DNA from: Geobacter sp. AOG2
GTDB taxonomy: Bacteria; Desulfobacterota; Desulfuromonadia; Geobacterales; Pseudopelobacteraceae
DNA: 64,000 nucleotides
Direction of reading: 5' to 3'
NCBI RefSeq assembly: GCF_019972295.1
Contig: NZ_BLJA01000001.1
Location: forward strand, 3,317,574 to 3,381,573
Under the pieces are notes generated by a model. That model did no database searches, had not been told where the DNA came from, and saw only the letters and a program-made list of their open reading frames with translations. The position numbers and the translations under genes are program-made. Each line of letters starts with the position of its first letter. The first letter of the stretch is position 1. Positions 7,090 through 45,158 of the stretch are shown here, piece after piece.

Positions 7090-8133
7090 CTACTGCGGGG
7101 CTGGCCCGTGGCCCTGTCGTTCGCCCCAGAACTCGGCCAGGCGTTGACCGGCCACGCTGAAGTCTTCCAGGTCAATCTCCACGTCCGGAATCCAGGGGCG
7201 GTTTTTGTAGTAGAGCCGGTCGTAGTAGTGTTCAATCAACCCCCGGGCAACCCCTTCCACGTCCCAACACTCCAAGAGCGCCTTGATCTCGGCGTACCGT
7301 ACTCCCCCCAGCTTCTTCCTGATCCGTTCCAAGGCCACGGTCATGGCCTCCCGGTACTCATCACATGCATACTCCACGGATAGCCGGTGCACCCGGGTCT
7401 CCAGGGAGGCATGGCACCAGATCTTGCACCCATCGCCCATGGCCTCATAGACTCTTCCGGGGAGTGATATTTTGCCGATACGCTGGCTTTCCCCCTCCAC
7501 AATGACCGGTCGGCCGTCGGGGGCGTTACGGAATGCGTCCCACAGGAGGGTATCAAAGCGTTTCTGGCTGATTGCCTGGACGAGCCCGACCTCGCCGAAG
7601 GCGGAGCCGCGATGGCAGGCCAATCCTTCCAGGTCGATCACAGTCCATGATTCCCGGTCCAGGCCGTTGATAAAGGTGGTCTTGCCGGTGCCGGTCATGC
7701 CGTGGATGACGATCAGCTGTCCCGGAGGGTTGAAATCTTCGAAGTAGGAGATAACCTGATTACGAAAGGCCCGGTACCCACCCTTGAGCTGTACCACCGG
7801 GTAGCCGCTCATCTCCAGCAGTATGGTCATGGAAAGGCTGCGCAGGCCGCCGCGCCAGCAGTAGACCAATACCGGCCTGCCGGCCGCTTGGTCGATGACG
7901 TCATGCACCATGGCGGCAAAACGGCCGCAGGTAAGTTCCAGGCCGCGTATGCGGGCCTTTTGGGGACCAGTCTGTTTATAGAGCGTGCCGACCTCTACAC
8001 GCTCCTCATCAGTGAGGATGGGTATATTGACTGCGCCGGGCAGATGGTCCTCGGCGAATTCCAGCGGGGTGCGGACGTCGATGATGCAGTGCGTGTCCAA
8101 CAGTGACGTGGTGAATGATATGGTTTGAGGCAT
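7090..8133 (-). CDS. mnmH: tRNA 2-selenouridine synthase
   Basis: 347 aa, full length for the family. Residues 1-125 are a rhodanese domain with catalytic Cys92 in YCWRGG. Residues 140 onward carry a P-loop (GMTGTGKT, 145-152) typical of the MnmH C-terminal half. The enzyme replaces sulfur by selenium at U34 of certain tRNAs using selenophosphate, so the cell should have SelD. This agrees with the probable selenoprotein ArsS at 43.8 kb. Confidence 0.95.
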   Translation of the reverse strand: MPQTISFTTSLLDTHCIIDVRTPLEFAEDHLPGAVNIPILTDEERVEVGTLYKQTGPQKARIRGLELTCGRFAAMVHDVIDQAAGRPVLVYCWRGGLRSLSMTILLEMSGYPVVQLKGGYRAFRNQVISYFEDFNPPGQLIVIHGMTGTGKTTFINGLDRESWTVIDLEGLACHRGSAFGEVGLVQAISQKRFDTLLWDAFRNAPDGRPVIVEGESQRIGKISLPGRVYEAMGDGCKIWCHASLETRVHRLSVEYACDEYREAMTVALERIRKKLGGVRYAEIKALLECWDVEGVARGLIEHYYDRLYYKNRPWIPDVEIDLEDFSVAGQRLAEFWGERQGHGPAPQ

Positions 8134-12087: not shown

Positions 12088-12188
12088 GTAGGCGCAGAGG
12101 ATTTTTTTTGTAGCCCTTTTATAGGTTTTTTGATATAAATAAACGCTCGGTTTTCATGACGGCTACCCACTGGGGGTCGATCAGGCAC

Positions 12189-12260
12189 GGGACCGGAAAG
12201 TACGATCAATATACCGCCAGGATTCGGCAACGAACCGGGACGGAAGGGAATACCCGCCAG
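12189..12260 (+). ncRNA. Tandem leader hairpins upstream of panB (candidate pan-motif RNA)
   Basis: Two similar units lie head to tail in the panB leader. Unit 1 (12189-12220) starts GGGACCGGAAAG and ends ATACCGCCAG. Unit 2 (12237-12260) starts GGGACGGAAGGG and ends ATACCCGCCAG. Each folds as a short hairpin with an unpaired A-rich bulge (for unit 2, GG-AA-GGG against CCC-G-CC). A family called the pan motif is known upstream of pantothenate genes in several phyla including Deltaproteobacteria, often as tandem pairs. I assign this by location, tandem layout and bulged A residues, not by a model search. Confidence 0.55.
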
Positions 12261-43032: not shown

Positions 43033-43776
43033 ATGAGTATGGTTTCAAAGCGGCTGGTTGCCATCCGCCTGCTGGTGACGGCCATGTTGGTCCAACTGGT
43101 TTTCTGCATCCCGGCGGCGTATTCCGCCGCAACTGGCGACGACTACGAGATACCTTTGGCTGAGCTCAAAAAGGTGGAGAAGAAAAAAACGAAGAAAGCG
43201 GAAACCAGGAGGCGCACGGAAAGAAAGAAGACCCATGCCACACGCCAGGAAACTCAGCATGAAGCGTCTGGGGCAACCGATGTTCCCGAACGGCCTGTTC
43301 CTTTGTTGTCTGAAACTGAAAAAGACGGGGCGGAGTTCATGGAAGCGCCGGACAGCGCCCACATCAGCCATGAGCCTTACAGCTATGTAGTGCCCGGCAA
43401 ACGTACCGTCGTCAAGGTCGTCATCAGCCGTGAAGCCGTGCAGTCCGTCCGGTGCCGGTTCCGGTCCCTGGAGCGGGGCGGTTATGCTTCTGTGGCGATG
43501 ACTAAGGCGCCTGGGAGCCAATTCACTTATGTTGCGACGCTGCCGGCGCTCGAACCGGGGATGGCCGCGCTCCTCCGCTACCGCTTTGTGGTTGTTGACG
43601 CCTCGGGGAGCCGAACCTTCAGCCAAGAGTTTGTTATCCCCGTGAAATCAACCTCGGTCATGCCCGGTTGGCAGCAGGACCCTTCCCCTGAGCCGGTTAG
43701 GGCCACCTTGGATAACCCCCGGCAGCCTCTTGAAGGATTTTCGGATGTGGTCATGGAGAATGTCGAAAAGAAGTGA
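43033..43776 (+). CDS. Exported or membrane-anchored hypothetical protein
   Basis: 247 aa. A signal-type N-terminus (about residues 8-33, ending YSA) is followed by a Lys/Arg/Glu-rich stretch (45-80) that looks disordered, and a beta-rich C-terminal domain (about 115-210) with immunoglobulin-like strand spacing (YSYVVPGKRTVVKVVISR, LRYRFVVVDASGSRTFSQEF). No known domain is recognised. It converges on arsS. Confidence 0.65.
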   Translation: MSMVSKRLVAIRLLVTAMLVQLVFCIPAAYSAATGDDYEIPLAELKKVEKKKTKKAETRRRTERKKTHATRQETQHEASGATDVPERPVPLLSETEKDGAEFMEAPDSAHISHEPYSYVVPGKRTVVKVVISREAVQSVRCRFRSLERGGYASVAMTKAPGSQFTYVATLPALEPGMAALLRYRFVVVDASGSRTFSQEFVIPVKSTSVMPGWQQDPSPEPVRATLDNPRQPLEGFSDVVMENVEKK

Positions 43777-43787
43777 CGGTTTTTTAC

Positions 43788-44759
43788 TTACAGCCCCTCC
43801 AGAGCCGTGATGCTGCCGCCTCACGTGAAGCCGGAACCGGCCGTGCAGGCAAAACAGTGGTCACTTACCGGAATGGGGGTGCCTGCCGGGGGCAGCTCGG
43901 AGAGCTCGGAGATATGGAGGCGCCGGCCGCCGTGATGCAGTCCGGTCGCCAGGTTGAAATCGCAGTCATAGAGGAAGCCGTCCCAGTCTACCGAGATCAG
44001 TGAACGGCACATCAAGCCGGGCAGGGTGCAGGTGTTGAAGCTTTTCTCCAGCTTCGCCAGATAGGCCTCCAGGTTGCCGGAGCGCTCCAGCCAGTCGCGA
44101 AAACGGCCCAACGGCACGTTGGCAAAGGTGTAGAGGCGGTTGAAACTGACGGCGTAGCGCCGCTTTAGATCCTGGCGGAACTTCTTCTCCGCCTGCCCTT
44201 GGGGGGCGGGGAGGAACGCCCCGGTGGGGTTGCAAACTAGGTCCAGTTGCAGGCCGCTTCCTTCCAAGCCGTAGCCCAACCCATTGAGTTTCTTCAGTAT
44301 TTCGATGCTGGCGTCCCAGGTTCCGCTTCCTCGCTGGGCCTCTGTTTGTGTGGAATTAACGGCCGGAAGCGATGCCGATAATGTTACGTTATGCTTACGG
44401 TAGACTACCGGTAATGTTACGGTATCGGGCCGCATCAGGGCCGCCAGGTTGGTACGAACGATCAGTTTGGGGGTCAGGGGTGCCAGGCCTTCGATCAGAC
44501 GAGGGAGACTTGGCAACAGCTCCGGTGCGCCGCCGGTGATGTCGATGGCGGAGAAATTGAGGCGGGCGGCGCAGGCGATGACCGCCTCCACCGTCTCGGG
44601 GCTCATCGCCTCCCGCCGGTCCGGCCCGGCTTCCAGGTGGCAGTGGCGGCAGGCCAGATTGCAGGCCAGGCCGACATTGATCTGCAACGTCGTGGTCGTG
44701 CCGCGGGTCAACTCAAGGCCGTGCCGTTGGAGGGTTTCTGAAAATCTGGAAGGATTCAT
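43788..44759 (-). CDS. arsS: Arsenosugar biosynthesis radical SAM protein ArsS, probable selenoprotein
   Basis: 323 codons if the in-frame TGA at 43823-43821 is read as selenocysteine; 312 aa if it stops there. The radical SAM CxxxCxxC is CNLACRHC, and the C-terminal Cys-rich domain has CTLPGLMC, YDCDF and HCFACTAGSG. Family members end with a CTAGxGSSCGG-like block; here AGSGFT is followed by TGA and then GG, so TGA falls exactly where the conserved Cys is expected. Reading on gives GGSITALEGL and a TAA at 43790-43788. ArsS/TIGR04167-type proteins include known selenoproteins. An AhpD-like partner gene is just upstream. Confidence 0.8.
43821..43823 (-). other. In-frame UGA, likely selenocysteine codon in arsS
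   Basis: The codon reads TGA and is followed by GGCGGC. Within the next 30 bases, CAGC and GCTG could pair to hold a hairpin, a possible bacterial SECIS; the structure is not convincing by eye. Confidence 0.7.
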
Positions 44760-44825
44760 GGTCCGGTTCTTTGCGGAAACTCCCGTTCCCGGATAAGTCC
44801 TGCGCCGCGTCCCCGCGCCCCAGGG

Positions 44826-45158
44826 CTACAGCGACAATTTTTCGGCGATCTTCCTCATCTGCACGCCGTGCACCAGCGACGCCCCGCCGCGGATGGCGTT
44901 GGTCACGTGCAGCGCCTCGGTCATCTCCTCCAGGTTGGAGCCCTTTTCCAGACACGCGGTGGTATAGGCGTCGATGCAGTAGGGACACTGCACGGCATGG
45001 GCCACGGCCAGCGCGATCAGCGCCTTCTCGCGCTCGCTCAGCGCCCCTTCGGCAAAGACCGCTCCATAATAGTCGAAGAACTTCGAGGCCAAGTCGGGGG
45101 CACTCTTGCCGATATCGCCGAATGCGGCCAGGTCGGCCGGGTCGTAATAGGTTTCCAT
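44826..45158 (-). CDS. ArsS-associated AhpD-like peroxidase-like protein
   Basis: 110 aa carboxymuconolactone decarboxylase/AhpD fold with redox CxxC at Cys58 and Cys61 (CPYCIDAYTTACLEKG). The small size and location next to arsS fit the family annotated as arsenosugar biosynthesis-associated peroxidase-like. RBS GGGGGAAG. It may keep the radical SAM protein or its arsenic substrate reduced. Confidence 0.88.
   Translation of the reverse strand: METYYDPADLAAFGDIGKSAPDLASKFFDYYGAVFAEGALSEREKALIALAVAHAVQCPYCIDAYTTACLEKGSNLEEMTEALHVTNAIRGGASLVHGVQMRKIAEKLSL

Follow-up and report, generated by a model that had tools for sequence, protein, structure and literature searches.

A predicted selenocysteine-containing ArsS beside an AhpD-like gene in Geobacter sp. 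AOG2

Termination codons within reading frames pose a simple question, namely whether they end a protein or encode a residue. Such a codon lies near the end of an arsS gene on the minus strand of the window, by which we mean the whole stretch of 64,000 nucleotides from Geobacter sp. AOG2 that was analysed. Its C-terminus reads ...HCFACTAGSGFT-TGA(43823-43821)-GGSITALEGL-TAA(43790-43788), as the preliminary description had it in sequence and in coordinates, with ten sense codons between TGA and TAA. The conventional open reading frame starts at 44759 and has 312 amino acids (43821-44759), hence an ordinary gene caller would lose 11 residues as claimed, selenocysteine (Sec) and the ten that follow. 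With TGA read as Sec at residue 313 the coding sequence extends over 43788-44759 (minus strand) and specifies 323 amino acids. This protein, with TGA taken as Cys, scores 376.4 bits against the NCBIfam profile TIGR04167 (cut-off 300), and the match covers residues 17-317, thus extending beyond residue 313. It carries a CxxxCxxC motif (C33, C37, C40; 44640-44663, minus strand), invariant in 61 aligned ArsS proteins, and the role of this motif in binding the [4Fe-4S] cluster is established for the radical SAM superfamily. We conclude that the gene very probably encodes a selenocysteine-containing ArsS, a predicted radical SAM enzyme of arsenosugar biosynthesis.

The family is not new to selenium. 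The NCBIfam name of TIGR04167 is arsenosugar biosynthesis radical SAM (seleno)protein ArsS, and a 2026 review has the entry "Radical SAM domain protein, TIGR04167, GxxU, AAR34688.1" and credits it to Zhang and Gladyshev 2005 (PMC13188914), in agreement with the earlier statement that ArsS families include selenoproteins. The GFTU of the window fits the GxxU of that entry, and AAR34688.1 is likened to our protein by motif and family only. Sec-type ArsS is already on record and the present gene is another member, differing from the listed one only in a detail, the Cys-type paralogue that its genome also encodes. AAR34688.1 itself we take to be a protein of Geobacter sulfurreducens. An account of the role of selenium in ArsS was not found in the open-access literature; "radical SAM" and "ArsS" are absent as terms from PMC12013277 and PMC5029168, and "radical SAM" is absent as a term from PMC1794560.

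The position of the TGA is telling when relatives are compared. ArsS loci were drawn from genomes of the same family and from named genome contigs (the best 80 loci of the latter), and at the 128 sites read in 127 loci the codon was Cys in 105 and TGA in 23 cases; nothing else occurred, including TAA or TAG, with a motif search pattern that restricts the letters at and just after the site, so that an unusual residue could escape it. Three loci whose sites did not match this pattern were left out (L062, L094 and L111), of which L094 nevertheless shows Cys. Five of the 127 loci (L141, L142, L145, L146 and L151) repeat genes already included, and their removal leaves 123 distinct proteins, 20 with Sec and 103 with Cys. 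Across the 61 aligned rows residue 313 (Cys, or TGA as Cys) is invariant, and so is G315 beyond it; the preliminary description had expected a Cys at this place in relatives, which is borne out by the 128 sites, all of them Cys or TGA, and by the 61 rows. Altogether eight Cys/Sec positions are invariant in this alignment, C33, C37, C40, C251, C266, C302, C305 and U313. The last five include a SPASM-like pair, C251-x14-C266-D-F (43962-44009, minus strand), and a C-terminal thiol/selenol motif, C302-xx-C305-x7-U313 (43821-43856, minus strand). Sec-ArsS occurs in Geobacteraceae and in other former Deltaproteobacteria, in one bin each of Nitrospirota and Lachnospiraceae, and in Eggerthellaceae and Coriobacteriaceae, two Gordonibacter among them. 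That the TGA is a sequencing or assembly error for Cys, for which a single base would suffice, is extremely improbable given an assembly in one contig of 3.92 Mb and two loci of the same genus (L057 and L058, 76-77% protein identity) with TGA at the identical codon and the same downstream hairpin.

A Sec codon requires a genome that decodes it. The preliminary description had made its reading depend on selA, selB, selC and selD, and all four are present above cut-off in the single contig: selA in one copy (617.5 bits), selB in two (388.8 and 360.2 bits), selC in two (79.5 and 77.0 bits) and selD in one (358.8 bits), whose match spans one TGA, so that selD itself needs readthrough. The mnmH gene named there was also recovered (G000 3324771-3325664, approximately 7198-8091 of the window), and two formate dehydrogenase-like frames, both under the family cut-off, have one in-frame TGA each. 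Because selA, selB, selC, the TGA-containing selD, these TGA-bearing frames and mnmH occur together, the genome almost certainly decodes Sec. As a predictor of Sec-ArsS among family genomes, selB is consistent yet weak, being found in all ten genomes with a TGA-containing ArsS versus 27 of 36 Cys-only genomes (p 0.17). In one of these ten, G002 (220 contigs), no selC was found at the strict cut-off.

The duplication of selB and selC deserves a separate remark. On the contig (G000:C1) selB lies at 468021-469166 and 467277-467588 (minus strand) and at 514567-516459 (plus strand; loci L022, L023, L001 and L002), and selC at 514103 and 2649465. Both selB paralogues are full-length and 76% identical; selC2 lies immediately upstream of selB2, and selB2 belongs to a separate clade with longer branches. 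The congeners G050 and G052 each have two selB and at least two selC, with a selC adjoining selB2. Two complete sel operons are recorded for Photobacterium profundum 3TCK (PMC5330540). In the gap between selC2 and selB2 (L002 1750-1955) an apparent truncated remnant of a class V aminotransferase, cysteine desulfurase-like, was seen by eye, and directly upstream of selD (L026 4700-5000) there are long degenerate tandem repeats with units like ataggagttataggact, then cataagtccc. Elsewhere on the contig a weak AhpD-like match with one in-frame TGA (G000:C1:479923-480159, L201; 21.7 bits) is a possible further selenoprotein, and the window holds a pan motif RNA (RF01749) at 12157-12247 on the plus strand (43.9 bits, gathering score 36.2).

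Bacterial Sec insertion also involves a hairpin downstream of the codon, and a SECIS-type hairpin is found at 43790-43808 (minus strand), 13-31 nt past the TGA. It has 7 bp with a 5-nt UGGAG loop, or 8 bp with a GGA loop, and the loop lies 19-20 nt after the TGA. The published limits for bSECIS elements, as given in PMC13188914, are a loop of 3-9 nt, an upper stem of 4-16 bp, a minimum free energy of at most -7.5 kcal/mol, a G within the first two nucleotides of the loop and a distance of 16-37 nt from the UGA. In our own implementation of these limits, which are loose, the window hairpin lies within them (8 bp, loop GGA, 20 nt, -9.2 kcal/mol), as do 17 of 20 Sec genes (the others being L065, L067 and L077) versus 22 of 102 Cys genes, both counts after removal of identical DNA stretches; in the clade of the window itself 4 of 9 Cys rows pass (L063, L147, L150 and L152). 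The median folding energy downstream of the codon is -9.7 kcal/mol in the 20 Sec genes versus -3.3 in the 102 Cys genes, with a p value of 1e-9 that is optimistic since the rows are related. An Rfam search of the window and of 43700-43900 gave no hits to SECIS families. The 41 nt of the window folded alone are not significantly more stable than shuffled sequences (z -1.15; 27 of 200 as good), and the case for the hairpin is therefore a comparative one.

This comparison was made in ten Sec genes, picked for a common hairpin register and aligned without gaps over 41 nt from the TGA, a stretch that is also under coding conservation. In the 7-bp stem (columns 16-22 and 28-34) 91.4% of the cells are paired and the covariation score is 0.454, a value reached by none of 500 shuffles, and it falls to 0.05-0.14 when the partner is slid by 1-3 columns. 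Four of the seven stem pairs are altered on both sides, a cruder count that 13 of 500 shuffles reach. The search for a SECIS element suggested earlier has thus yielded a hairpin that conforms to the published limits and covaries in ten relatives. Its relation to the end of the gene is close. The first T of the TAA (43788-43790) is the final paired base on its 3' side, and of the 20 Sec genes 16 have their next in-frame stop within the most stable hairpin or at its margin, three have it after the hairpin and one has it before. In these genes Sec is therefore trailed by 5-12 sense codons, and the element may partly extend beyond the stop. In seven Sec-ArsS genes (L060, L064, L066, L081, L137, L139 and L140) this next stop, 5-11 codons on, is itself a TGA. 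Another side observation concerns L152, a Cys-type ArsS of genome G042 in a Sec-rich clade, which has a hairpin with the loop GGAGG 20 nt past the Cys codon; G042 gave no selB hits, and the hairpin is possibly a SECIS relic after the loss of Sec.

Against this background we can consider the reading in which the TGA is an ordinary stop, the product a 312-residue ArsS without its last conserved residue, and the downstream similarity a relic of a former Cys codon. A plain search for open reading frames indeed ends at the TGA, and a second, intact Cys-type ArsS in the genome could cover the function. However, the TGA stands at exactly the same codon in 20 distinct genes from several phyla, none of the 128 sites has TAA or TAG, the glycine at 315 past the TGA is invariant, and the downstream hairpin covaries. 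An ordinary stop is hence very improbable, and the probable selenoprotein proposed in the preliminary description is supported by the Cys/TGA site, the covarying hairpin and the complete selABCD set.

Readthrough to Sec313 being by far the preferred reading, it can be asked how Sec and Cys forms are related. In a tree of the 123 ArsS proteins, built with a quick method, the distribution of Sec takes 9 changes, of which well supported branches force at least 5, and two clades, one with 15 and one with 23 rows, contain 19 of the 20 Sec forms. Sec and Cys have been swapped repeatedly, with Sec gained or lost within these two clades. The genome of the window is instructive here: it encodes a second ArsS, of Cys type (G000:C1:557820-558722, L146; 405.6 bits with TIGR04167), which belongs to the same family and has Cys at the Sec site, but differs from the Sec-ArsS in clade and in neighbours. 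Its gene is followed by those for a C-GCAxxG-C-C protein, which scores 72.6 bits (cut-off 47.4), for an arsenite methyltransferase-like protein, which with 205.9 bits for NF008823 stays under the cut-off (263), and for a channel of the aquaporin type with 184.7 bits (cut-off 171.25), and no AhpD-like hit was obtained at this locus. ArsS is found over cut-off in 46 of 76 family genomes, with two copies in three, and among those 46 only this genome combines a TGA-containing with a TGA-free copy. None of the 20 Sec loci showed an arsM-like gene, versus 16 of the 103 loci with Cys (p 0.07); for all such neighbour counts, many fetched loci carry only 1.5-3 kb per side. Such interchange may mean that readthrough is real and Sec is merely a near-neutral swap for Cys with no special role. 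The nine changes in the tree speak for this drift, and the Cys sister forms retain the AhpD-like neighbour. Against it one can argue, by inference only, that Sec is retained in many lineages despite its costly machinery and that a third residue was never taken at the 128 sites. We regard drift as possible, albeit unlikely.

The neighbour itself was part of the original proposal, which had paired the selenoprotein with an AhpD-like partner. A CxxC gene does lie 66 bp upstream of arsS (44826-45158, minus strand; 110 amino acids), its frame has no TGA, and the protein scores 197.4 bits against the NCBIfam profile TIGR04169 (arsenosugar biosynthesis-associated peroxidase-like, cut-off 120), of which it is a full-length member in which we found no difference from the family. 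It is the only copy of TIGR04169 above cut-off in the genome, and the short name of the profile, perox_w_seleSAM, already records the tie to a selenium SAM gene. Over all rows the AhpD-like gene was found in the fetched locus of 18 of 20 Sec versus 25 of 103 Cys forms, where L098 and L098b are one locus with one AhpD-like gene between them. Within the two Sec-rich clades it is equally frequent in Sec and Cys rows (18 of 19 each), and outside of them 7 of the 84 Cys rows show it and the single Sec row, L081, does not. A tie of Sec to this neighbour is therefore rejected: the partner gene stands as described, but the pairing does not track Sec as such and is a property of the lineage, not a marker of Sec. 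These data also bear on the idea that Sec313 is mainly redox-active, working as a pair with the AhpD-like CxxC protein instead of coordinating arsenic or a cluster. In line with it, the two clades paired with AhpD contain 19 of the 20 Sec forms, and the gene was found in the fetched locus of 18 of the 20; yet Cys forms in the same clades show the pairing just as often (18 of 19), and ArsS proteins with no AhpD-like neighbour (78 of 103 Cys rows) keep the site invariant as well. A mainly redox role thus appears possible, albeit less likely than not.

What Sec313 may do within ArsS has to be approached from the fold and from the chemistry of the family. In an AlphaFold2 model the mean pLDDT is 94.5, and about 63 over residues 311-320. 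The best PDB matches in Foldseek are radical SAM enzymes, including SkfB, SuiB, BlsE, EpeE and anSME, with E values of 9e-12 and weaker and TM-scores by query length of 0.48-0.57 among the best 20 matches. The C251-x14-C266-D-F motif aligns, weakly (E 0.086), with the motif of anSME, the solved anaerobic sulfatase-maturating enzyme. Among these matches SkfB, SuiB, EpeE and anSME are SPASM/twitch enzymes, and with anSME ArsS has C-x14-C-D-F in common at this weak E value. These enzymes have more C-terminal cysteines and are not known to contain Sec. In arsenosugar biosynthesis arsenic is adenosylated by radical SAM enzymes (PMC12159101, where Cheng et al. 2021 is cited for ArsS), and the first steps in Synechocystis involve ArsS together with ArsM (PMC8552651).

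From this a mechanism can be proposed. The CxxxCxxC cluster would cleave SAM, and the deoxyadenosyl group would go onto arsenic, which is the known reaction of the family. Sec313 would be one of five invariant C-terminal residues in a SPASM-like region, of which C251, C266, C302 and C305 may hold an auxiliary cluster. Sec313 might then either hold the As(III) substrate or complete the auxiliary metal site, which we consider about equally probable, and in both cases it may be a tighter, more readily re-reduced counterpart of the Cys found in other ArsS proteins. Judging by the stable pairing, the AhpD-like CxxC protein encoded next to it would be a probable redox partner. What we infer on the role of Sec313 is drawn from conservation only. 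That Sec313 is an active-site selenium ligand, through a Se-As bond to the trivalent arsenic substrate or as a ligand of an auxiliary Fe-S cluster, and that the two ArsS proteins are perhaps specialised, is put forward as a possible, albeit unlikely, suggestion.

The residue that ordinary gene callers drop is Cys or Sec at every ArsS site read. Since Sec- and Cys-ArsS are both present in this genome, in different clades and with different neighbours, each may be adapted to its own arsenic substrates or conditions. The genome offers a natural pair, a Sec-ArsS by an AhpD-like gene and a Cys-ArsS by an arsenite methyltransferase-like gene, and as both occur in one organism, the contribution of selenium to arsenic chemistry would be directly testable.
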